Shown here: positions 13,490 to 46,555 of the stretch, piece by piece
Position numbering within the stretch: the first letter of the stretch is position 1
Layout: every line of letters begins with the position of its first letter
Source: an uncultured Fodinibius sp.
GTDB lineage: Bacteria; Bacteroidota; Rhodothermia; Balneolales; Balneolaceae
DNA: 64,000 bases
Direction: 5' to 3'
Assembly: GCA_913057775.1 (NCBI GenBank)
Contig: CAJXOG010000009.1
Coordinates: 1 to 64,000 of the forward strand
Notes under the pieces: generated by a model
Databases searched by the model: none
The model's input: only the letters and a program-made list of their open reading frames with translations
Told to the model about the DNA's origin: nothing
Program-made: the position numbers and the translations under genes

Positions 13490-15127
13490 CTACAGATCAA
13501 ATATTTCAGAAGGTTGTATGTTGCGGTAATCCGGCATAATCATCCCGGCATCGGCCCCAAAGTAAGTGGGATCGGAAACATAGTAGCGTTTCCCGTTATA
13601 TGTGATGGGATCGTTAATGCGCTCCCCGCTTGGTTGTTCGTTAGGAAAGTGAACAGCAAGGGTTAAATGCCCCGGATAACGTACTACGATATAGTCGAGA
13701 TCGGTAAGCTGATCAAGTAAATATCCAAGCATAATTGCTCGGTCATCACAGTCAGATGCCGGATAGTAAAGCGTTTCAACGGGGAACATTTTTTTCTCAG
13801 CTTTAAACTGTTCTGTATCAGTTTGATACTCAAAGGAGCGCTGTGTGAAACGAAGTAACAGGTTTACCTGCTCGAGGGTAGACTTGCCCTCCAGTAGAGG
13901 TTTTATTGATTTAGTTAACTGTGAATGCGTCTCATTATTTTCTATCTGGCTGCTAAAATATAGTTCCAAGTCAGCCTGAGGATAGTTTTTGAAGTAGTTA
14001 ACAGTCTGGACATCTACAGGTACGTTTATCGAATAAGTGGAATCCCGGAAGGTGAATTCCAGGTTCTGTTGCTGCTGTTTTTGCTGCAATGTAGGAAACT
14101 TTTCAAAAAGTAGATTGATGGGTCTTGTCTCTTTTTGAGCATGACGGCCTTTATATGTATAAAATCTTTCTGGAAGGGTTGGATAATCATTACTTAATTG
14201 AATGTCATAATATTTTGAACCATTCATAGTTAACGACTTTCGGAAAACGTGCGGGGTGGCTTTAACCAGTAGGTGAACCTTGTGATTTTTATAGGCTACC
14301 TTGGTGCCAAATCCAGATTGGGTTAGCATAAACCACGTAAATAACGTAGCCTCATTGCTCTTGTGTCCATAAATTTGTGTACCAATGTTATGCAGTAGTT
14401 GGGCATATCCAAAATCATTTAGCGACAATTGCGTCCGCACTTGCTGAATTTGTTCCAGGAAAGAAGGATAATCTTTTGTACTTAGGTGCTTCCAGAATTC
14501 TGCAATGGCTTTACGGTTAACCGGCTTTTCTAATTGTTTTTCGTAGGCGGTGTAATATTTGTAATTAATTGGAATGCCAAAGTATTGTAACTGCTTGGAG
14601 CGAATATCAGCTTTTTTGATGTTAGGCTTAAAGTCTGTCGTGATCCCTTTAGAGGGGGTGAAAGATTCAGATTCTACATTAACTTCCCGATCTTCTTCAG
14701 TTTTTATTGGTTCTTCTTTCTGAGGGTTAGAAGTAGTTCGTTTATTTTTTGTTTGAGGCTGGTCTGCTTCTGGGAATGGTTGCTTTTCTTTCGGTTGTTG
14801 CTCTTCCGTTTTTGGATCGGTTTCATCCCGTGGCTTTTCGGGTTTGGGATTCGGCGAATCGGGTTCTTCTACAACAGGAAGCTGCTTGGGTTTCGGTTTT
14901 TCATAGAATTGCGCGCTGTGCTCCGACTTAAAGTCTTCCCATTCTTTTTGGAGCATCTCATAGAACTCTTTGTCATACTCATTTTGAAACTCTTGGAACT
15001 CTTGAAGATAGTTTTCTTTCCACTCTTCAAAATCTTGGGCCTGTGCAGCATTAAACGATACGCCCAAAACCATAAGAAAGGCAGCTAAAATGTAATAGAA
15101 AGTGTTTTTAATATTGTCCGGAACCAT
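13490..15127 (-). CDS. Secreted transglutaminase-like cysteine protein with coiled N-terminus
   Basis: The 545-residue protein has a signal peptide (cleavage after AQA near residue 30). An acidic, aromatic-rich helix follows (about 31-75), then a Pro/Lys/Glu linker to about 150. The C-terminal transglutaminase-like domain has Cys460 in ASDCDDRA, His487 in PGHLTLAV and Asp519 in VSDPTY, a plausible triad. The pattern CDDRA is typical of periplasmic transglutaminase-like proteases. It is divergent from the lipoprotein cluster that begins at 15416, and its N-terminal helix resembles the one in the MltC-like protein at 19496. Substrate may be peptidoglycan or envelope protein; this is inference. 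Confidence 0.75.
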   Translation of the reverse strand: MVPDNIKNTFYYILAAFLMVLGVSFNAAQAQDFEEWKENYLQEFQEFQNEYDKEFYEMLQKEWEDFKSEHSAQFYEKPKPKQLPVVEEPDSPNPKPEKPRDETDPKTEEQQPKEKQPFPEADQPQTKNKRTTSNPQKEEPIKTEEDREVNVESESFTPSKGITTDFKPNIKKADIRSKQLQYFGIPINYKYYTAYEKQLEKPVNRKAIAEFWKHLSTKDYPSFLEQIQQVRTQLSLNDFGYAQLLHNIGTQIYGHKSNEATLFTWFMLTQSGFGTKVAYKNHKVHLLVKATPHVFRKSLTMNGSKYYDIQLSNDYPTLPERFYTYKGRHAQKETRPINLLFEKFPTLQQKQQQQNLEFTFRDSTYSINVPVDVQTVNYFKNYPQADLELYFSSQIENNETHSQLTKSIKPLLEGKSTLEQVNLLLRFTQRSFEYQTDTEQFKAEKKMFPVETLYYPASDCDDRAIMLGYLLDQLTDLDYIVVRYPGHLTLAVHFPNEQPSGERINDPITYNGKRYYVSDPTYFGADAGMIMPDYRNIQPSEIFDL

Positions 15128-15415
15128 AATTTTAACTCCTCGGGTTAGATGAATTATTTTGATAAATGGTAACCTCTAACTATAAGAGATACAAATATTT
15201 AAGTTATAGCTGAATATCTAAATGCGATTAAATAATTAAGCTTATTTATATTTTCGCAAAATAAAGTAAAGTATATTGTAATTATATTGGGTGGAATTTT
15301 GTAAAAAATAAAATTAATATTTGAAATCTCATCTGAAAAACAGCATGTTCACAGATGGTAAAAAAATAAAACGGGGACAAATTTCATATAAGTTTAAACA
15401 TAAGAGAGTTGACCT
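15128..15415. promoter_or_regulatory. AT-rich divergent intergenic region of the envelope cluster
   Basis: This 288-bp region separates the transglutaminase-like gene (reverse) from the LpoB-like gene (forward). It is strongly AT-rich and has no gene. Both promoters must lie here. AAATATTTG-like segments on each strand (near 15195 and 15320) are near misses to the Bacteroidetes -7 motif TAnnTTTG, so I do not assign exact promoters. The shared region suggests joint control of both sides of the cluster. Confidence 0.5.
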
Positions 15416-16012
15416 ATGACCTTTACAAAAGTTACTCTAACTACGGTAATTGCAGCATTTCTTTTTTTGGGATGTGGTCCAACACAAAGCGTTCAAAGAG
15501 TAGATCCGGGATCGCAGTCAGATTTATCAGGGAATTGGAATTCTACTGATGCCCGTATGGTGGCAGAAGATATGACTTCTGATATTCTTTCGGCCGCATG
15601 GTTGCAAAATGAAGATTCACCGGTTTTAATTGTTGGAGATATCAGGAATAATACTACAGAGCATATCCGGACGGATATTTTTATCAAAGAAATAGAGCGG
15701 GCGATTGTTAACAGTCAAAAAGTGGAGATTGTTGCAGATCCTGACCAGCGTGGGCAGATTAGGGCTGAGCGCGATGATCAGCAGCAACATGCTTCTTATG
15801 AGTCTGCAGCTTCTCTTGCACAAGAGCTTGGTGCCGATTATATGTTGATTGGTGGTATTGAAGCTAATGTAGACAAGAATTTAGATGGTACTCGTGCCGC
15901 CAAGTTTTATACTGTCAATCTTGAATTGATTAACGTGGAATCAAACCGAAAGGCATGGATTGGCAATAAGAAAATAAAGAAGATGATTGAGCGGAGTAGA
16001 GTAAAATGGTGA
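15416..16012 (+). CDS. LpoB-like penicillin-binding-protein activator lipoprotein
   Basis: The lipobox LFLGC gives lipidated Cys20, followed by a linker and a compact C-terminal domain. Motifs VLIVGDIRNNTTEHI, FIKEIERAIVNS and ASLAQELGADYMLIGGI match the LpoB/COG3417 fold, whose founding member docks on PBP1b and activates peptidoglycan synthesis from the outer membrane. The 198-residue length fits. Whether it activates a PBP here is inferred; no PBP is in the window. It leads a forward run of envelope lipoproteins, 172-187 bases ahead of the next one. Confidence 0.8.
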   Translation: MTFTKVTLTTVIAAFLFLGCGPTQSVQRVDPGSQSDLSGNWNSTDARMVAEDMTSDILSAAWLQNEDSPVLIVGDIRNNTTEHIRTDIFIKEIERAIVNSQKVEIVADPDQRGQIRAERDDQQQHASYESAASLAQELGADYMLIGGIEANVDKNLDGTRAAKFYTVNLELINVESNRKAWIGNKKIKKMIERSRVKW

Positions 16013-16199
16013 GCCCCTAACTCATAAGTGCTTCAGGTTGTTTTTATTCTATGGCTTTCAATAGTTTAGTGATTTGTTGAAGTACGTGAGAAGAGAGAGC
16101 AAAGAATTTTAGTCAATTGTAAAAACACAGCTCAGGCTAGGGATGTAATATTAACCCAATTGTAATCAAAGGGTAATTAAGAACGTGAGGATCAGTTTC

Positions 16200-17522
16200 A
16201 TGTTTGGCAGGAAGATAATGTGGGGCTTATTTATAGTAGTTTTTGTAGCACTGGTGTCGGGGTGTGGTTCGCAAAAGCTAGTGAATGGTCAAAAACAGAT
16301 GCGTATGTCCTTTCAGTCAGGAGATTTTGAAAGAGCTGATTATATAGCCGACAGCTTAAAAGAAAATGAGATCTATGAAGCAAAAGATCGTGTACTTTAT
16401 GCCTTGGAAAAGGGAACAATTAATTATTTCAAGGGAGATTATAAACAGAGCATTGAGTCTTTTACAAATGCCGAAGAATATATAGATCAGCTATTTACCA
16501 AAAGTATAAAAACAGGGATTGGTGCATTTATTAGTAACGATACTGAGCTGAACTATAATGGAGAGGTATATGAAGATGTGTATCTCAACGGGTTTAAGAG
16601 TTTGGGATATCTGAAAATGGATAACTTTGAGAGTGCGTTGGTTGAGGCTCGGCGAATTGCGCAAAAACTTTCTGAAGCAGAGCAAAAATATAGTGAATAC
16701 GCAAGTGCCATGGCTGAGTCTGATACCACGGAAAAGGATATAAAATGGGAGGCTGGCACTTCCAGTATTCATGATAGTCCCCTGAGCCATTATTTGGCAG
16801 GTGCCCTCTATGCCAAAGCCGGTGAAGAAGATGGGGCGCGGATCGAAATGAATAAATTGAAAAGGGCCATAAATAATCATCAGGCAATGCCTGATTCAAA
16901 GCTGAAGTTTGATTCTGCATTTACCAAGGTACAGCATCCTGATCATTATAATACAATGCTAATGGCTTTTTGTGGTAATGCTCCTGATAAGGTGGAATTT
17001 AGTATTAATACTGATTTAAACTTTGATGGGAAAGGTGTAAAAATTGCTATTCCCAGGCTAAAAATGAGACCCTCAAATGTGGGTATTATTGATGTGGTGA
17101 TAAATGATACTATGAGTACTGAGCTAAAGATTATTGAAGAGATGGATAAGGTGGCTCGGGAAACATTTGAAATTAAGAAGCCCATTATTATTGCACGAGC
17201 AACGATAAGGGGAATTCTAAAATCTGTTGCCCAAGAAGGTATTACCGATGCAATCGAAGATGAGTATGGTTCGATTGCAGGAGATGTTGCAAGTTTTCTG
17301 GGTGGCAGGGCCCGTGAGGCAACAGAGCAGGCCGATCTGCGGGGTTGGCAAACAATGCCAGGTAAGGTGTATACAAATGTAGTTAAGCTTCCAGCCGGAG
17401 AACATGATGTTACATTTAACTATTATTCGCCGGCAGGCGAATTGCTGTATTCAGAGGCACGCAATATAAAAATAAGTGAGCAGGAACGTTTAGAACCGAT
17501 AGCATCAATTTACTCTAACTAA
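16200..17522 (+). CDS. COG3014-like TPR-type lipoprotein
   Basis: Starting at ATG 16200 (GTGAGG 9 bases upstream acts as ribosome site) gives 440 residues with lipobox LVSGC at Cys22. A GTG at 16185 is the alternative start. The first half is helical and TPR-like (SGDFERADYIADSL, FKGDYKQSIESF, LAGALYAKAGEEDGARIEMNK in sequence). The C-terminal half contains the repeated beta segments usual for COG3014, ending in a strand-rich PAGEHDVTFNYY block. Proteins of this group regularly sit next to LpoB homologues. Molecular role is unknown; outer-membrane periplasmic face is expected. Confidence 0.75.
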   Translation: MFGRKIMWGLFIVVFVALVSGCGSQKLVNGQKQMRMSFQSGDFERADYIADSLKENEIYEAKDRVLYALEKGTINYFKGDYKQSIESFTNAEEYIDQLFTKSIKTGIGAFISNDTELNYNGEVYEDVYLNGFKSLGYLKMDNFESALVEARRIAQKLSEAEQKYSEYASAMAESDTTEKDIKWEAGTSSIHDSPLSHYLAGALYAKAGEEDGARIEMNKLKRAINNHQAMPDSKLKFDSAFTKVQHPDHYNTMLMAFCGNAPDKVEFSINTDLNFDGKGVKIAIPRLKMRPSNVGIIDVVINDTMSTELKIIEEMDKVARETFEIKKPIIIARATIRGILKSVAQEGITDAIEDEYGSIAGDVASFLGGRAREATEQADLRGWQTMPGKVYTNVVKLPAGEHDVTFNYYSPAGELLYSEARNIKISEQERLEPIASIYSN

Positions 17523-17547
17523 AAAGTGGACTCGCATCATCTATATT

Positions 17548-18597
17548 ATGAGAATCGATAGCATAAGCCATCAAATAGTACTATTGGCGGGACTTGTTTT
17601 GCTTGTATTTACCTATGGTTGTTCAGCAACGGCAGAAGCACAAAGCCAGGGATTACCGGTCTGGATTGATAACCCGTCAGATCAATATAGTGAGAACCAA
17701 TTTTTGATGGCAGTAGGTTCTTCGCCCACAAGAGAGGGAGCCCGAACACAGGCACAATCCAACTTGGCCCAAATATTTGTGTCGGAAGTTGAAGTTAACG
17801 AGTCATACGTTAATGAATTTCAAGAAATAACAGATTCCGAGGAAGGCACAACGATCCGGGAAAACACCAATTTAATTACTCAGTCAGAGGTGAACTCGGA
17901 TCAACAAATGAGGAATGTAGAAATTAAAGAAATGCATCAGGCTTCGGATGGCACATTCTATGCTCTTGCAGCAATGGATCGTATAGAAACAGCGCAGTTA
18001 TATAGTGGGGAAATAGCGGATAATCAAAATAAGATTAATTCCCTTCGTAAAAATGCTGTACAGACCAATAGTAGATTAGAAGGTCTAATTTATTTGAAGC
18101 AAGCATTAGCAACGGCACGAGTTAATGAAATGTTAATTAATCAGCGGGCTATTCTATCCGGACAGGCAGCACGGGGTAATGTAGCTTTGCCAGAAATTAT
18201 GCAAGAGTATAGAGAGGCGAAGAAAGCCTGTACTGTGAGGTTGTTAAAAGATGGAGAGGTGCCCAGAGAAGTACAGTCTGAAATTACCAGAAAACTGCAA
18301 AATGAGGGATTTGAGGTGGCCAATAATACTGGCGATCCGGTGATTGAAATGACTATCAGTCTTATGATGGAGCCGGTTGACCTAAATCGCCCCAAGTATG
18401 AATTTATCCAGTGGGCATTACAAATTGAAGCTCAAAACAAGGAAAATGGACAATGGTTTAGTACCTATATGGCCGAGGGACGTGAAGGAAGTATGAATGA
18501 AAAGTATGCGCGTCAGAGAGCAGTTCAGGCAGTACAGAAGAAGTTGTCTTCAGAGTTTGCAGGATTTATAAACAAGGAGTTACTATCTGTGGAGTAA
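17548..18597 (+). CDS. LPP20-family lipoprotein with long C-terminal extension
   Basis: The lipobox FTYGC gives Cys25, then the LPP20 pattern LPVWIDNP, FLMAVGSSPTREGARTQAQS (residues about 50-70) and LITQSEVNSDQQMRNVEI. ALAAMDRIETAQLY follows near 135. These match the LPP20/FlgP-like domain in which a YAxG strand precedes an Arg-rich helix. The final 120 residues add an extra alpha/beta domain that I cannot name. It follows the COG3014-like gene by 25 bases, so they are probably co-transcribed. Confidence 0.75.
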   Translation: MRIDSISHQIVLLAGLVLLVFTYGCSATAEAQSQGLPVWIDNPSDQYSENQFLMAVGSSPTREGARTQAQSNLAQIFVSEVEVNESYVNEFQEITDSEEGTTIRENTNLITQSEVNSDQQMRNVEIKEMHQASDGTFYALAAMDRIETAQLYSGEIADNQNKINSLRKNAVQTNSRLEGLIYLKQALATARVNEMLINQRAILSGQAARGNVALPEIMQEYREAKKACTVRLLKDGEVPREVQSEITRKLQNEGFEVANNTGDPVIEMTISLMMEPVDLNRPKYEFIQWALQIEAQNKENGQWFSTYMAEGREGSMNEKYARQRAVQAVQKKLSSEFAGFINKELLSVE

Positions 18598-18749
18598 GCA
18601 GGATTAGCCAAGCTATTTATCAAATAAATGTGATTTGCTGATAAATTTTTTTAAACTATCATTCCAATGAATGGAATAGGATTTTAATAAAAGTTCATCA
18701 ATATGGACTACTTTAATTACATCATCTAATAATATAAACAGGGATCATT

Positions 18750-19340
18750 ATGAAAATACGTATACTACTCACTTTTTTAGTAGCTGGATTTTTAGTTATG
18801 GGTTGCAGCAGTTCGGAACCGGCAACAGATAACTCGGGAAGTGATTTGCCAAGCTGGTACACCAACCCACCCAGTAGCGATAGTGAATATATCTATGCTA
18901 TCGGTGAAGGAACATCTTCTCGAAGAAGTATGGCGAGAAAGCAGGCGATGCAAAATGGACGAGCAGCACTTACGCTTAAGCTTGAGTCTGAAATAAGTGC
19001 TATGCAGAAAAATTTCGCTGAAGAGACAACATCAGGTGCAAACAGCAATTACAGTGAGGTGTTTACTGATGTATCTAAATCAGTGGGACAACAAACATTG
19101 CGCGGTGTGGATGTTGATAGAAGTAAGTTTTATCAGCGAGATAATAATACCAAGCATGAAGTGCTTATGCTGGTTCGTTTACCCGTTGGAGAAGCGGCGA
19201 ATGCTTTGAACCAAGCACTTGAAAACACACTATCTAAAGATGAAGAGCTTTACACAAAGTTCAAGGCAGAAAAGGGCTTTGAAGAAATGAAAAAAGCTAT
19301 TGAAGAAATGAAAAATGGCAGTATGCCATCCGGGCAATAG
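18750..19340 (+). CDS. LPP20-family lipoprotein
   Basis: The lipobox LVMGC gives Cys19. The LPP20 domain then runs LPSWYTNPP, YIYAIGEGTSSRRSMARKQA (about 50-70), a helix, and RGVDVDRSKFYQRDN with the closing strand HEVLMLVRLP. The 196-residue length is close to the compact family size, unlike its longer neighbour at 17548, so they look like paralogues or partner proteins. C-terminal 40 residues form a charged helix with EEMKKAIEEMKNG. A very strong terminator ends the run after this gene. Confidence 0.8.
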   Translation: MKIRILLTFLVAGFLVMGCSSSEPATDNSGSDLPSWYTNPPSSDSEYIYAIGEGTSSRRSMARKQAMQNGRAALTLKLESEISAMQKNFAEETTSGANSNYSEVFTDVSKSVGQQTLRGVDVDRSKFYQRDNNTKHEVLMLVRLPVGEAANALNQALENTLSKDEELYTKFKAEKGFEEMKKAIEEMKNGSMPSGQ

Positions 19341-19369
19341 CTTGGGAGAGAAATTACCATTAGGTTTTA

Positions 19370-19414
19370 AAATATCTCAACCCGGAATAACCGGGTTGAG
19401 ATATTTCTTTTATT
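19370..19414 (+). terminator. Strong terminator ending the lipoprotein run
   Basis: A perfect 16-bp stem (19370-19385 with 19391-19406) with loop AATAA is followed by TTTCTTTT. It separates the LPP20-like gene from the MltC-like gene, so the latter needs its own promoter in 19415-19495. Confidence 0.95.
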
Positions 19415-19495
19415 ATTAAAAGTGGGGATAATAAAGCGATAATATTGCCAATCGTATTAGTAGTATTAATTTCAATGCTAGGGAGAGAAAATATT

Positions 19496-20734
19496 ATGTT
19501 TAGGCAAAAAGGGGTGTGTTGCTTAGGAAGGTATCTTACAGGAATTTTATTAACAGTATTCTGTATTGGTATTTCATCTGTTTGGGCACAGGATAGTTTT
19601 GAAGATTATAAAAAACAGTACCAAGAGGGGTATCAGAAGTATTTGGAAAATATTGAGAATGGTGTAGCAAATTCTGAAGAGGATTATGAAAAATATAGAG
19701 AGGCATTTGAAAAGGAATACAAAGCATTTAAAGAGGAAATGCTGCAAAAATGGGGCGACTTCAAAGAGCGGTCCAAGAAACAATGGGTAGAATATAAAGA
19801 AAATGGTAATCTGCGAATTTCAACGGATTTTGAAAAAGGAAGTGGTCAGGTTGAGGTAATTACCGGGAGTAAAGAAGAAGCTGAAAAAGTAAAGGAGGAA
19901 ATGCCTAAAAAGGTTTCTGAAGCCATGAAATTTAAAGGAACCAGGGAAGGATTTGAAACAGAAAATGTACCTAACAAAGAGATTGCCAAGGAGGCAGTTT
20001 TAGCAGATCAGCTGAACAAACCTGAAGATCAGCCCGTGGATGAGTACGCCAAAGAGGTCGCAGAAAAAAACACGAAAACAAAAGAGGTGCAAGGTGACGA
20101 TGGGGAGACTCGTTATGTAGTATATGTGAATTTTCAGCTTTCGGATGATCATATGCAAAAAAGAGCAGAAAAGGTTGAGAATTTCATATATAAGTTCTCA
20201 AGTCAACATGATATTGATCCGGCTCTTGTATTTGCAATAATTCATGTTGAGTCTCATTTTAATCCTACCGCCGCCTCACATGCTAATGCGTATGGGTTAA
20301 TGCAGTTGGTGCCAACCACAGGAGGACGCGATGCCTATCGAAGAATTTTTAATGAAGATGGTATTCCTACCAAAGAATTTTTGTTTCAGCCGGACAATAA
20401 TATTCAGATGGGAACAACTTTTATAGATATCATGGAATCTAATTATTTTGATCGTGCTGAGGATGAGATAACGCGGGAGTATTTGATTATCTGTGCATAT
20501 AATACGGGTGCCGGAAATGTATCTGTAGCTTATACGGGCGACACTAATTTATCGAATGCGTTTTCAAAAATTAACAGCATGTCACCCGAAGAAAATTATA
20601 AACACCTGCGTGAAAACCTGGAATATGCTGAGGCTAGAAACTATCTCAAGAAGGTTACGACCCAACGTGAGAGATATAATAAGTGGAAACGACAGGTAGA
20701 AGAAGATCAGGGTTTATTTTTAAATTCGTTTTAA
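19496..20734 (+). CDS. MltC-like membrane/secreted murein lytic transglycosylase
   Basis: The ATG at 19496 has the strong ribosome site GGGAGAGA 8-9 bases upstream, so I prefer it to the TTG at 19445. The 412-residue product has a signal peptide ending VWA/Q near 31 rather than a lipobox. A 70-residue acidic helical region resembles the MltC N-terminal domain. The C-terminal SLT domain carries the catalytic Glu252 in IIHVESHFNP, then ANAYGLMQLVP and AYNTGAGNV. Lytic transglycosylases cleave the glycan strand, forming 1,6-anhydromuramic ends. It shares its N-terminal motif with the transglutaminase-like protein upstream of the cluster. Confidence 0.85.
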   Translation: MFRQKGVCCLGRYLTGILLTVFCIGISSVWAQDSFEDYKKQYQEGYQKYLENIENGVANSEEDYEKYREAFEKEYKAFKEEMLQKWGDFKERSKKQWVEYKENGNLRISTDFEKGSGQVEVITGSKEEAEKVKEEMPKKVSEAMKFKGTREGFETENVPNKEIAKEAVLADQLNKPEDQPVDEYAKEVAEKNTKTKEVQGDDGETRYVVYVNFQLSDDHMQKRAEKVENFIYKFSSQHDIDPALVFAIIHVESHFNPTAASHANAYGLMQLVPTTGGRDAYRRIFNEDGIPTKEFLFQPDNNIQMGTTFIDIMESNYFDRAEDEITREYLIICAYNTGAGNVSVAYTGDTNLSNAFSKINSMSPEENYKHLRENLEYAEARNYLKKVTTQRERYNKWKRQVEEDQGLFLNSF

Positions 20735-24813: not shown

Positions 24814-26079
24814 TTGCAAAATTTTATACAAATCTCCTTTCAACAAGTAAGGTCATTTTACTTAGTTTTAATTTTAGGTGTCTTGGTAGGGTTCAGTGCC
24901 TGTGAAAATCCGGGCTCTGTAGGCAGCAACCTCACAGATCCTACATCAGAAGTAGTGCGAGACACATTAATTATCAATGGCTTAACCTCAGTAGATGCTA
25001 CATCTTATTCAGGTGAGCTGAATCTTTTTTCGGCCGGCAGCTTTGATGATCCGCTATTTGGCAGTATGGGCGTTACTGGTTATTTAAAGCCCAACCTTCC
25101 AGCAGCCTCTGATACATTGAAATCTGATGGCGAAGTGCTGTTGCGGATTATGTATGATCGCGGACAGGTTTCGGGAGATACCGTTGGTACTCAACAATTT
25201 GATTTGTATCAAATTAATCAATATTGGCGCGACCGAGTGTTAAAAGTGGATAATGAGCTTGCATTAGCGCAGCAAAAGCTTGGTGAATTTTCGGTTGGCT
25301 CAGAAGATTCTCTGATGATTAACCTATCTGACATTGCTCCACAGTGGGTGGATGAATATCGCATGTACGCAGATTCCTCAAAACAAGATACTACCGGAGC
25401 GGTAGATTCTTCATATGTGTATGATGCTCACGGATTGGCGTTAGTCCCCCAAAACAGTGCAAAGGTTATTCCGCTTTACCGAGATTCGACTCGTTTTTTT
25501 ATTCAACATCCCGAGGCGGATACTTTTGATGTATCGTTAAATAGGTGGGGATATTATTTAGACAGAGGCAGTAACACCACCATTCCGCAGGGATCATTAC
25601 CTTTGTACAGTACATACGAAAGTGTGCTTAATTTTAAAAAACTGGGAATCGAGGAGTTAGATATTCAGCCTCCGGGATTGTCTCGTGCAGAATTGGTACT
25701 GTATGAAAATACTTCTGCATTGGAACAAAGTTTAAACGGAGAGCCTTCAACTACGCAAAGGGCCAAAGAACAGGTAGCATATTTACATTTGGCTAACCCC
25801 GAGGGACTACCCGAAAATATTGATCCGGGCGTGCCGTTAAATAACCCGACACGATTGCAAGGCAGCTATTCTGCTGAAAATGGCACATATCGATTCGATG
25901 TTACAACACTGGTCGAAAATATTATAAGAAATGGATTTCCGGAAGATCGAGAGTTTTTTATAACACTTCCAAATGATGGTGTTATAAAATCCACTCTTAT
26001 AATGACTGATGATGATCAGGTTCCCAATGGACTGAAGCCTAAAATTATAATTACCTCTTTAAAAAATATTAAGAATTAG
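24814..26079 (+). CDS. DUF4270 family lipoprotein
   Basis: A TTG start at 24814 follows the GT5-like stop by 18 bases. The N-terminal hydrophobic helix ends in lipobox GFSAC, lipid Cys30, with the mature start CENPGSVG typical of Bacteroidetes DUF4270 proteins. The 421-residue body is rich in beta strands and Asp/Ser, with DTLIINGLTSVDATSYSGE near 50 and LFSAGSFDDPLFGSMGV near 71. The DUF4270 domain has no known activity; a surface or periplasmic beta-sandwich is likely. Two bases separate it from the next gene. Confidence 0.8.
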   Translation: MQNFIQISFQQVRSFYLVLILGVLVGFSACENPGSVGSNLTDPTSEVVRDTLIINGLTSVDATSYSGELNLFSAGSFDDPLFGSMGVTGYLKPNLPAASDTLKSDGEVLLRIMYDRGQVSGDTVGTQQFDLYQINQYWRDRVLKVDNELALAQQKLGEFSVGSEDSLMINLSDIAPQWVDEYRMYADSSKQDTTGAVDSSYVYDAHGLALVPQNSAKVIPLYRDSTRFFIQHPEADTFDVSLNRWGYYLDRGSNTTIPQGSLPLYSTYESVLNFKKLGIEELDIQPPGLSRAELVLYENTSALEQSLNGEPSTTQRAKEQVAYLHLANPEGLPENIDPGVPLNNPTRLQGSYSAENGTYRFDVTTLVENIIRNGFPEDREFFITLPNDGVIKSTLIMTDDDQVPNGLKPKIIITSLKNIKN

Positions 26080-26081
26080 CG

Positions 26082-27377
26082 TTGAAAAAGTTAGCTCTTA
26101 TAATAATACTACTGATTTTTGGAACTTCTACAGCATTTGCCCAATCAGGTGATGCTAAGGCCTCAAGTGGATCTGTTTATTCAAAAATAGGTATTGGATA
26201 TCCACTACCCACAAGTAATTCGGCAGCCCAATCTATGGGATTGCTAGGGGTTTCTTTTAATGATACATTTGTAGGAACGATTGCAAATCCTGCCCATTGG
26301 GGAAATACGGTATATGGTCTTGGCGTAGGAGAGATTGGCGTTGATTCTTATAGCGCCAGTGATGGCACAGGAAGTGTTACGAACTCAAATTTTTCAGTTG
26401 GTCAGTTTCAACTTCAACTCCCGATCATTCGAGGAGAATTGGGGGTTTCAGGTTCTTTTGCTCCTGTAACAGAGGCCAAATTTCGGACCTTTGAGCAGAA
26501 AACAATAGCAATCGGCGATAATATTCAGGGAGAAACAATCGATTTTAATCTTGAAAATCGTGGCAGTGGCGGATTAAATAGAGCTGAGTTAGGGCTTGGC
26601 TGGAGAATTAATTCAAATATCTCTGTCGGTTATGCAACGTCACTGTATTTTCTTTCGATGGATGATTCTTATGTGGCACGATTTCCACAATCTCCTTATC
26701 GTGATGTCAATTTCACTATTGAAACGAGTGGTCACAGTTTTGGACATCGTGTAGGAACATTTATTCGCTTACCCAATATTTTGCAAGAAGATGATCAGTT
26801 GGGGATTGGAGCGACCATTGATTTTCCTGTTGAGCTCAATTCAGAACGAAAACAAACGGGTTTTATAAATAATGGAGCCGTAAATTTGAGTAAGGATTTG
26901 CAAAATGCTACTGGTCCTATTAAACTACCAATGAAGGTAAGCGGTGGTGTGAGTTACAGCCCGAGTAATAAGCTGATGGTTGGTCTTGAAGGACTTTATG
27001 AGGGCTGGTCGGGATATGGAAATGATTTCAAGCCCTCTGAAGAACAGATGTTTGTAGACCGGTATAAAATGGGTTTGGGAGTACAGTATTTTCCCTATGT
27101 TACAGGATCAACGAATTTTTTATCGAACTTTAAGTATCGGGCGGGAGCTTCTTATGATACGGGTCATCTGGATATTGATGGACAACGGATTAACACACTA
27201 AAGTTTGCGTTTGGAATTGGTATCCGATCGCCACGGTCAAACTCCTCCATTGATTTAAGTTTTGAATATGGAATAAGGGGAACACAAACTTCAAATTTGG
27301 CTCAAGAAAATATTTGGGGAGTGCGACTTACGCTTAATTTGGCTGAAGTAATGTTTTTCCGTCCAAAGCTTCAATAA
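26082..27377 (+). CDS. Predicted outer-membrane beta-barrel protein
   Basis: A TTG at 26082 starts two bases after the DUF4270 stop, which suggests translational coupling. A signal peptide ends near AFAQ (residue 20). The rest is 400 residues of alternating short amphipathic strands with Gly/Tyr/Asn turns, as in FadL/OmpP1- or PorV-like barrels, and ends in LTLNLAEVMFFRPKLQ. The opening YSKIGIGYPLPTSNSAAQSM resembles long-chain-transporter-like barrels. No substrate can be named. Coupled with a DUF4270 lipoprotein it may form an outer-membrane complex. Confidence 0.65.
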   Translation: MKKLALIIILLIFGTSTAFAQSGDAKASSGSVYSKIGIGYPLPTSNSAAQSMGLLGVSFNDTFVGTIANPAHWGNTVYGLGVGEIGVDSYSASDGTGSVTNSNFSVGQFQLQLPIIRGELGVSGSFAPVTEAKFRTFEQKTIAIGDNIQGETIDFNLENRGSGGLNRAELGLGWRINSNISVGYATSLYFLSMDDSYVARFPQSPYRDVNFTIETSGHSFGHRVGTFIRLPNILQEDDQLGIGATIDFPVELNSERKQTGFINNGAVNLSKDLQNATGPIKLPMKVSGGVSYSPSNKLMVGLEGLYEGWSGYGNDFKPSEEQMFVDRYKMGLGVQYFPYVTGSTNFLSNFKYRAGASYDTGHLDIDGQRINTLKFAFGIGIRSPRSNSSIDLSFEYGIRGTQTSNLAQENIWGVRLTLNLAEVMFFRPKLQ

Positions 27378-44616: not shown

Positions 44617-45255
44617 CTATACTGTGAGTTTTAATTCTTGATACATTTCGTTGCCTTTTTCGAATACGGCGGCTAGTGTAAAGACCAATAGTCCCATAAT
44701 AATAAAGGTCCACTCGTCGCCAACCATAGGTAGTCCAATCCGGATGTCGGCCGTTTCGGGTGGAGTTATGTTGTTTATCGTCTTAAAAATGAAGTGGTGC
44801 TGTATCCATCTTAGTGGATCCACGAGCACGATGATGCCAGCCAATATTTTTATGCGATTGACATTTTCTTGGATGAATATGGCATTATTTACGGAGGCCT
44901 TGAGCAGGTTACGAAGCTGATAAATCCCATAAATAAAGAGGAACAGCACTATGCAGAAAAACAGCGCCCATGCAATGTACAAGACGGAGCTATGTTGTAA
45001 GAGGTAGCTAAAATCCACCTGTCCCGATACCGAATCAACGGTGATGTGTTGGTATTGCTCAGGGTTTTTAAGCGCAACCATTGAGTCTGCGAGCGGCACA
45101 TTTATTCCCATGATGGAATCAGACTGGGGATCTTGAAAATATCCATATGTGAGTACAGCCGGTAGCATAAAGCCAACTATACACGATAGGTACCACCAAA
45201 GGTTGACAATAAGGTAGCAAATGTATGCCGTCGATTTTTTACCGAATCCAGTCAT
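44617..45255 (-). CDS. DUF2975-like membrane protein (third copy)
   Basis: The 212-residue protein has four predicted helices, with a roughly 60-residue loop between helices 1 and 2 and the family end EKGNEMYQELKLTV. The middle loop has the family pattern LRNLLKASVNNAIFIQENVNRIKILAGI. It is 4 bases after the second copy. Function unknown; DUF2975 proteins commonly pair with a Cro/C1 regulator, as here. Confidence 0.75.
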   Translation of the reverse strand: MTGFGKKSTAYICYLIVNLWWYLSCIVGFMLPAVLTYGYFQDPQSDSIMGINVPLADSMVALKNPEQYQHITVDSVSGQVDFSYLLQHSSVLYIAWALFFCIVLFLFIYGIYQLRNLLKASVNNAIFIQENVNRIKILAGIIVLVDPLRWIQHHFIFKTINNITPPETADIRIGLPMVGDEWTFIIMGLLVFTLAAVFEKGNEMYQELKLTV

Positions 45256-45259
45256 AATG

Positions 45260-45892
45260 CTATACCGTTAGTTTTTGTTCTTCATGGATTTGAGTCGCCT
45301 GCCGAAAAATTTCTGCCAACACAAGAATAACGAGTCCGATAACAACGTAAATGATATCAAAAGTGGGTGATATAGTCTGTAAGTTTTGAGGGACGTCAAC
45401 ATACGATGTAAAAAACCAGTAACTGAGCCATTCATAGCCGTAAAGGAAGGGTGTAATTAACATCACCAATATCGCGATAATACGAAGTCTTTTTTCGTTA
45501 TCCGATGCAAAGGGGTTCTCAATCATCAGATTCCGCAGAATGGCTTTCAGCTGTGAGAGTCCATACACAATGATTCCAAGTCCCGTAGCCTGTATCAGTG
45601 TGATAATGGCAATCGCCCACCTGCTTCCGTTTTCAAAAAGTGCGGGATGGTAGGAAGCCTGCATGGAGTCGGTAAATATGATCAGGCTATCTCTCGTTTT
45701 CATAGACAGCTTTTCAGGGAGCACCTCCGGCGAAATTTGGATGGGCAGGTCGATTAGTACGATTGATAAACCAAAAAACTGAAAAACGATTAAAAGAATA
45801 TGCAGGCAGAGTATAACTACCACACCTGCCCACGCCAGCTGTACCATAAAATTGATGAAAGAGGTCACCGACCATTTTCCCAAGATATTCAT
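45260..45892 (-). CDS. DUF2975-like membrane protein (second copy)
   Basis: The 210-residue protein has four hydrophobic helices and the motif LRNLMIENPFASDNEKRLRI near 140, the DUF2975 signature Pro-Phe..Asn..Lys-Arg-Leu-Arg. The tail ATQIHEEQKLTV matches the family end. It is the closest copy to the DUF2975 consensus in this operon. Gap to the first copy is 27 bases. Confidence 0.8.
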   Translation of the reverse strand: MNILGKWSVTSFINFMVQLAWAGVVVILCLHILLIVFQFFGLSIVLIDLPIQISPEVLPEKLSMKTRDSLIIFTDSMQASYHPALFENGSRWAIAIITLIQATGLGIIVYGLSQLKAILRNLMIENPFASDNEKRLRIIAILVMLITPFLYGYEWLSYWFFTSYVDVPQNLQTISPTFDIIYVVIGLVILVLAEIFRQATQIHEEQKLTV

Positions 45893-45919
45893 CGCATTCC
45901 CTATTAGATTATAATTGAG

Positions 45920-46555
45920 TTACACCGTTAGTTTTTGTTCTTCATAAAGTCGCGTACCTTCTTCAAAAATGAAGGCTACCAATAGCACAGCCAAACCGGC
46001 CAGTCCAAGCTCCCACGCAATTGGCGGCCAAAAAAGAGAGATACTTTCCGGAAGTTGGATCTGGTTGATCATCAGATACGAGAGCCATCCAATACCATAC
46101 TTATAGGGAACGGCAAGCAACATTAAATAGCCGATGATCTTCAGGTTTTTGGAGTTTTGGTTATTCCATGGCTCTTCGCGTCGCAAGCTTCGTAGTATGC
46201 GTCCGAGAAGGGTAAGTCCGTAAAGAATAATCCCATCGAGACCGATCGTCATTATAGAAGCCAGATAGTAGCTCCACTTGTTTTGGAGCTCGATATCCTC
46301 AAAGCTGGCATTCGTTTCTAGAATGGAACTGTTAAAAATGTTTGCTGTATCACTGTTGGTAATAATTTCTCCAAAGTCATAGATATAAATTCGAGCAGGT
46401 AATTCAAGGAAATGTAGATCACCAATAAAAATATCAGCTATAAATAATAGCGACCCGCCTAAAATTGAAATGAAATAAATACCCCAGGCAAGCAGAGCAA
46501 AAAAGTACAGAAAACCGGCGATACTCCCATCATTTTTGAACCAATTCCAAGCCAT
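45920..46555 (-). CDS. DUF2975-like membrane protein (first copy)
   Basis: The 211-residue protein leads the operon. It has four helices and the signature LRSLRREEPWNNQNSKNLKIIG, then the tail EGTRLYEEQKLTV. The extracellular loop between helices 1 and 2 is about 60 residues. Paralogue number three in the tandem; all four end in an [E/Q]-[Q/L]-[K/D]-L-T-[V/I] terminus. Promoter/operator sequences lie immediately upstream. Confidence 0.8.
   Translation of the reverse strand: MAWNWFKNDGSIAGFLYFFALLAWGIYFISILGGSLLFIADIFIGDLHFLELPARIYIYDFGEIITNSDTANIFNSSILETNASFEDIELQNKWSYYLASIMTIGLDGIILYGLTLLGRILRSLRREEPWNNQNSKNLKIIGYLMLLAVPYKYGIGWLSYLMINQIQLPESISLFWPPIAWELGLAGLAVLLVAFIFEEGTRLYEEQKLTV

Follow-up and report, generated by a model that had tools for sequence, protein, structure and literature searches.

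Six genes lie side by side at positions 13490-20734 of a 64,000-nucleotide stretch of a Fodinibius-type Balneolales genome (assembly GCA_913057775.1, contig CAJXOG010000009.1, positions 1 to 64,000; the whole stretch is referred to as the window). Do they belong together and, if so, what could they do at the cell envelope? Four of them encode lipoproteins, namely LpoB, a COG3014-type protein with tetratricopeptide repeats (TPR), and two LPP20 proteins (LPP20L and LPP20S), while the remaining two encode a transglutaminase-like protein (TG), transcribed divergently, and an MltC-like lytic transglycosylase. An earlier note on this DNA had proposed them as an envelope cluster, and all six open reading frames (ORFs) were recovered where it had placed them. 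Co-occurrence of the families in related genomes and synteny across phyla exceed what chance would give, and we are confident that the gene set is a real module rather than a chance neighbourhood. As for its role, we favour, by a modest preference, an envelope module for peptidoglycan remodelling, in which a lipoprotein scaffold would recruit two cutting enzymes near a class A penicillin-binding protein (PBP).

The presence of each family was scored in 58 related genomes, the window genome included, with family-specific E-value cut-offs set by eye (ca. 1e-20 to 1e-50). Association was assessed by Fisher tests, which, beyond a collapse to genera, ignore phylogeny. TG, LPP20L, LPP20S, and the MltC-like enzyme rise and fall jointly, including the cases in which their genes are unlinked. 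TG and LPP20S are found together in 18 genomes, LPP20S only in two, TG only in none, and neither in 38 (p = 4e-13); the corresponding counts for LPP20L and LPP20S are 16 with both, four with LPP20S only, none with LPP20L only, and 38 with neither. Further pairs behave similarly (TG-LPP20L, p = 2e-12; TG-MltC, p = 4e-10; LpoB-COG3014, p = 1.5e-15), and after collapsing to genera these three pairs and TG-LPP20S keep p values from 6e-6 to 2e-9, with 1.9e-6 for TG-MltC; LPP20S-MltC gives 7e-8. Within the genus itself, seven genomes have the full set, four have none of it, and one (G003) shows decay, its LPP20S being intact but TG and LPP20L reduced to remnants. Beyond the genus, two linked modules can be told apart: COG3014-LPP20L-LpoB, and LPP20S accompanied by TG, MltC, or both. 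These often lie on separate contigs and yet are mostly present together (e.g., in G020, G023, and G032). Exceptions include G057, with TG and LPP20S in a fragmented assembly, and G040 and G048, in which no full-length MltC was found. The families taken together by the earlier note are therefore not independent as far as TG, LPP20L, LPP20S, and MltC are concerned, but nine genomes have LpoB-COG3014 and none of the others; this is the older pair and can stand alone.

The unit extends to other phyla. Searching with the COG3014 alignment yielded 358 relatives, and in nearly all of the best 80 loci, on which our locus counts are based, LpoB and COG3014 are adjacent. The order LpoB-COG3014-LPP20L recurs in Spirochaetota, Cloacimonadota, Calditrichota, Kiritimatiellae, Lentisphaerae, and one metagenome-assembled genome (MAG) labelled Armatimonadota. 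Two Calditrichota loci are longer. Both gain LPP20S, one more LPP20-type protein, and a regulatory-like protein (carboxypeptidase-regulatory-like in L178, similar in L145); in addition, L178 carries TG and a FecR protein, and L145 a FlgT_N protein and MltC. In Cloacimonadota, the second TG of one genome follows the order COG3014-LPP20L-..-LPP20S-..-TG (L300). LPP20S is also connected with MltC in G035, and with TG in family f4, through yet another LPP20-type protein, X253; relatives of X253 lie just past MltC in G004 and G009, and none is present in the window.

Moreover, TG depends on LPP20L in a nested manner. Among the 48 genomes behind the COG3014 loci, which represent eight major groups, TG is present in 16 of the 30 whose COG3014 locus includes LPP20L and in 0 of the other 18 (p = 8e-5). 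One of these 16 TGs is truncated at a contig end, and since contig ends also interrupt some COG3014 loci, LPP20L may have been missed in a few genomes scored as lacking it. The same dependency is seen separately in Balneolales (6/7 vs 0/8) and in Cloacimonadota (8/8 vs 0/4). Full-length MltC-like enzymes were found in Balneolales, in the genome carrying L145, and in one Melioribacteraceae, and a partial one in the Armatimonadota-labelled MAG.

What do the two enzymes look like? The labels LpoB, LPP20 (twice), and MltC-like are borne out by Pfam and NCBIfam, while the transglutaminase-like label is upheld by the fold: TG has no Pfam domain, and its NCBIfam LapG score is 13 bits with a cut-off of 320. 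TG comprises an N-terminal helix (ca. residues 31-70), a proline-rich linker, a middle domain of unknown fold, and a C-terminal domain (residues 397-545) predicted to be a papain/transglutaminase-like, LapG-like peptidase domain. The mean predicted local distance difference test score (pLDDT) of the model is 61; in the C-terminal domain it is mostly 76-92, but 55-65 at residues 431-460. The best structural match of this domain is LapG (4u65_E; Z 12.8, root-mean-square deviation 4.0 over 140 residues), and further matches are a second LapG (Z 11.3), TglA (Z 11.1), and the pseudomurein endoisopeptidases PeiP (Z 9.5) and PeiW (Z 9.1). In the model, Cys460, His487, and Asp519 are placed as the triad of papain-like enzymes, and all three are invariant in three alignments (A2, A5, A8) and in the full-length copies checked. 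TG shares this triad and the fold of the catalytic domain with LapG/BTLCP cysteine peptidases, but the likeness spans only the C-terminal quarter to third of the protein, to which TG adds the long helix, the linker, and the middle domain; its gene neighbours also differ. The idea that the middle of TG is a tandem transglutaminase domain found no support (hhalign E 0.044, probability 1.2).

The second enzyme has the Mltc_N and SLT domains of MltC (Pfam E 2e-06 and 1e-23). It matches the NCBIfam MltC model at E 1e-55 (188.9 bits, under the equivalog cut-off of 375) and the MltC structures 9vi7 and 4c5f at E 1e-40 and 7e-36, over nearly the full length. The catalytic Glu252 (codon 20249-20251) is invariant in relatives. 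ATG 19496 is the more likely start, rather than TTG 19445. Unlike MltC, the protein is secreted and not lipidated: its signal peptide ends in SSVWAQ-D, and a lipobox is absent both here and in the relatives. In two genomes (G005 and G002; L076 and L077), apparent internal stop codons of the MltC-like gene mark the extreme C-terminal end, the proteins being ca. 10 residues shorter than in the window.

The MltC-like enzyme also differs from MltC in having an additional N-terminal helical element in common with TG, a similar segment opening the mature N-termini of both. Model positions 8-80 of the MltC-like profile match TG N-termini with E-values from 2e-6 to 7e-4 (ten places in nine genomes), and beyond MltC-like proteins and TG these positions have no other listed match in the 48 genomes. 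In the reverse search, the TG profile matches the MltC-like N-terminus in G075 (E 1.6e-4). When the N-terminal MltC profile was compared with 6603 ORFs, the matches after MltC were mostly TGs and one FecR protein, with weak individual E-values. Relative to composition shuffles, which do not keep the heptad pattern, the likeness in sequences of the genus has z of 5-6.5. This common helix, previously unremarked, is docking-like and may be a recruitment tag. In L178 (16727-17539), the FecR-domain protein beside TG has a C-terminal helical stretch that resembles it.

The remaining four proteins are predicted lipoproteins. A lipobox scan checked by eye gave clear signals in LpoB and COG3014 and weaker ones in LPP20L and LPP20S; because TG and the MltC-like enzyme have ordinary signal peptides without a lipobox, exactly four lipoproteins are predicted, situated between the two enzymes as the earlier note had it. 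PF13036 covers LpoB completely (1-147/147), the NCBIfam equivalog TIGR02722 gives 90.7 bits (cut-off 110.55), and the LpoB domain begins at residue 45, which leaves a tether of ∼24 residues. For the COG3014 protein, which has no Pfam match above cut-off, the predicted structure (pLDDT 89.5, predicted template modelling score 0.88) contains a TPR superhelix, two beta blocks, and a long helix, and a search with the whole model returned generic TPR proteins only (Z up to 12.6). Its name is based on the label of the earlier note, the TPR fold, and the pairing with LpoB rather than on a COG profile, and a literature search for "COG3014" found nothing. Searching PDB with the sequence profiles of TG, COG3014, and LPP20L gave nothing useful. 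The LPP20 domain (PF02169, cut-off 25.9 bits) scores 42.4 bits in LPP20L, for which we aligned 28 sequences from several phyla (A6), and 34.4 bits in LPP20S. Both thus resemble the LPP20/FlgP lipoproteins, from which LPP20L differs by its added C-terminal part and the window genome by having no flagellum. Further copies of LpoB-COG3014 occur in G009 (L215, L216; G009:C2:419411-420472), one COG3014 being broken by a frameshift or stop, which suggests decay of paralogues.

On the plus strand, the genes are separated by 172, 25, 152, and 104 nt, the last gap being measured to the TTG start (∼155 nt to ATG 19496). Promoters for both directions presumably lie between TG and lpoB; a promoter scan of the 288 nt there gave nothing above chance. 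A strong hairpin at the junction of LPP20S and the MltC-like gene is found in 7/7 intact clusters of the genus (−24 to −42 kcal/mol in 110-nt segments), and in an alignment of five of the clusters both arms of the stem carry changes. The MltC-like gene is therefore probably a separate transcript or reached via read-through. No PADLOC match was obtained, and a role in anti-phage defence was rejected. Elsewhere, the window contains three tandem DUF2975 genes (Pfam) on the minus strand (44617-46555) and two neighbouring ORFs (421 and 431 aa; 24814-27377) that match nothing in Pfam.

Coordinates of the six genes and associated features in the window
Feature	Position	Strand	Remarks
TG, secreted, 545 aa	13490..15127	-	signal peptide; C-terminal fold match to LapG
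TG N-terminal helical element (DFEEWKENYLQEF...EWEDFK)	14918..15037	-	common to TG and MltC-like
TG-lpoB divergent intergenic region, 288 nt	15128..15415	.	
LpoB-family lipoprotein, 198 aa, lipobox FLGC, Cys20	15416..16012	+	PF13036 E 3.1e-33
COG3014-type TPR lipoprotein, 445 aa, lipobox VSGC, Cys27	16185..17522	+	predicted fold
LPP20L, LPP20 lipoprotein with C-terminal extension, 349 aa	17548..18597	+	PF02169 E 1e-10
LPP20S, LPP20 lipoprotein, 196 aa	18750..19340	+	PF02169 E 3e-08
Intrinsic-terminator-like hairpin, 16-bp stem, T-rich tail	19370..19406	+	between LPP20S and MltC-like gene
MltC-like lytic transglycosylase, 412 aa	19496..20734	+	Mltc_N + SLT; ordinary signal peptide
MltC-like N-terminal helical element (DSFEDYKKQY...KWGDFKERSKKQWVEY)	19601..19810	+	related to TG element

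In order to see how the module may be connected to wall synthesis, we considered PBPs. The window genome has one class A PBP, with glycosyltransferase and transpeptidase domains only; UB2H-like matches fall in ORFs of Mfd/UvrB size. Five Cloacimonadota loci carry genes for a class A PBP, a family 2 glycosyltransferase, TG, and a sugar nucleotidyl transferase, in that order (Pfam was run on all five PBPs, one glycosyltransferase, and one nucleotidyl transferase), and a sixth, at a contig edge, has a PBP-like C-terminal piece in the equivalent place. In the Balneolaceae genome G020, LPP20S lies 106 nt behind a class A PBP. These neighbours support a link of the module to peptidoglycan, on which it likely acts together with a class A PBP. 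The same contig region of G020 (L195, 3537-12578) is one gene run encoding the class A PBP, LPP20S, a PEGA protein, uncharacterised proteins, and an LPP20-type protein.

The earlier note had drawn on the activation of a peptidoglycan synthase by LpoB in enterics. In a system of that style, LpoB would span the wall to activate the class A PBP itself, and the enzymes encoded nearby would be accessory cutters. The PF13036 match and the PBP neighbourhoods of TG in Cloacimonadota and of LPP20S in G020 agree with it, and an LpoB family domain on a lipoprotein is shared with the PBP1B-LpoB system of E. coli. However, E. coli LpoB docks on UB2H of the PBP, a combination reported as restricted to enterobacteria (PMC3060616), and its tether reaches up to 145 Å (PMC4632607), whereas here the only class A PBP has no UB2H, the tether is short, LpoB is paired with COG3014, and none of the 80 LpoB-COG3014 loci contains a PBP gene. 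Activation in the enteric way is thus unsupported as it was put, and we consider it quite unlikely; if LpoB touches the PBP at all, it does so differently. The activator LpoP of P. aeruginosa PBP1B is a TPR lipoprotein (PMC7267771), as is the COG3014 protein.

Other explanations look away from wall synthesis. Given its structural likeness to LapG, TG could release or mature an outer-membrane or surface protein, such as an adhesin, an S-layer, or a polymer export apparatus, with the lipoproteins as regulators and the transglycosylase only opening the wall for assembly. The LapG relative HvyA controls capsulation (PMC4241560), and the FlgT_N, FecR, PEGA, and carboxypeptidase-regulatory-like proteins of related gene runs would suit an apparatus that spans the envelope. 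In G035 (L198, 7476-9704; Pfam), the immediate neighbour of TG is a CHASE2-adenylate/guanylate cyclase, and in G023 (L191, 9399-12906) LPP20S is followed by an M48 peptidase protein with an SH3-like segment and an adjoining CHASE2-like protein, both recognised by eye; these neighbours hint at a signalling input. Still, the conserved neighbour in Cloacimonadota is a class A PBP and not an exporter, the NCBIfam LapG score is far under its cut-off, and neither a LapA-type adhesin nor LapD came to notice next to TG, although no systematic search was made. This role is therefore unlikely in our estimate. The LPP20 (FlgP) and FlgT families, whose LPP20 and FlgT_N domains are common to flagellar accessory proteins (PMC11756786), form disks associated with flagella or motility elsewhere; as the window genome is 100% complete and lacks FliF, and the four families show no association with FliF across the 58 genomes (p 0.38-0.78), we rejected such a disk as hardly credible. 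The six functions could also be unlinked and held together merely through shared Balneolales ancestry. Many of the genomes are indeed close relatives, and the Fisher tests therefore overstate independence. However, the all-or-none pattern within one genus, the joint presence of unlinked genes, the nested dependency seen separately in Balneolales and Cloacimonadota, and the helix common to both enzymes make mere co-inheritance very improbable.

The remodelling module that we favour builds on the gene content, the folds, the triad, the co-occurrence, the nested dependency, the synteny across phyla, and the shared helix. LpoB and COG3014 would be its old core, a scaffold of outer-membrane-type lipoproteins facing the periplasm, which LPP20L would extend, followed by LPP20S and, in relatives, by a third LPP20-type protein. 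The common N-terminal helix would bring TG and the MltC-like enzyme to this scaffold, with COG3014 or LPP20 as its presumed binding partner. Recruitment of both enzymes by one helix would place glycan cutting and a peptide- or protein-cleaving step, in which TG may cut peptidoglycan peptides or an anchor protein, at one site near the class A PBP, the presumed synthetic partner, and wall synthesis and cutting could so be coordinated.

A number of observations weigh against this reading. LapG-type enzymes are known as proteases, not as wall enzymes. The likeness of the two helices could be that of convergent amphipathic helices. G036 has LPP20S and MltC without LpoB, COG3014, or TG, and G042 has TG, LPP20S, and MltC without LpoB, COG3014, or LPP20L; the enzymes therefore do not strictly need the LpoB-COG3014 core. 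Nor do they always accompany each other: a profile search of the 48 genomes found TG and no MltC-like enzyme in Cloacimonadota, and the genome with L145 has MltC without TG. The terminator sets the MltC-like gene apart, and the cluster is probably not one transcript. Finally, the sole class A PBP lacks UB2H, and the PBP neighbourhoods amount to few independent events, being one conserved arrangement in Cloacimonadota and one instance elsewhere.

The closest described parallel comes from Helicobacter and Campylobacter, where an LpoB homologue is encoded together with a TPR lipoprotein (HP0018/HP1457 and the Cj0089-Cj0090-Cj0091 operon, respectively), HP0018 being a homologue of Cj0089 (PMC11394524, PMC3100323). 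HP0018 co-precipitates the lytic transglycosylase MltD and the amidase AmiA, and its loss leads to hypervesiculation and less helical cells (PMC11394524). By analogy, these data fit a scaffold for wall hydrolases. However, the Campylobacter operon, as described, has no LPP20-TG-MltC extension, and a further point against our reading is that COG3014 was likened to HP0018/Cj0089 by gene pairing, TPR content, and size (PMC3100323), not by sequence homology. We also put forward, tentatively and as a doubtful possibility, that the module is an undescribed envelope complex of several phyla, in which an LpoB-TPR-LPP20 scaffold would recruit a transglycosylase and a LapG-like peptidase via one N-terminal helical tag, so that both types of wall cutting would be coupled to a class A PBP devoid of UB2H; the tag is perhaps also present in the FecR-domain protein of the Calditrichota gene run.

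LpoB homologues are annotated in many phyla whose PBPs may, like the one here, lack the LpoB dock. The present analysis names their partners (COG3014, LPP20L, LPP20S, TG, and the MltC-like enzyme), gives the nested order in which these depend on each other, and offers a short helix as a candidate recruitment tag. It provides a context for COG3014 and LPP20, two families lacking a settled molecular function, and the gene order ties a LapG-type peptidase to a peptidoglycan synthase.

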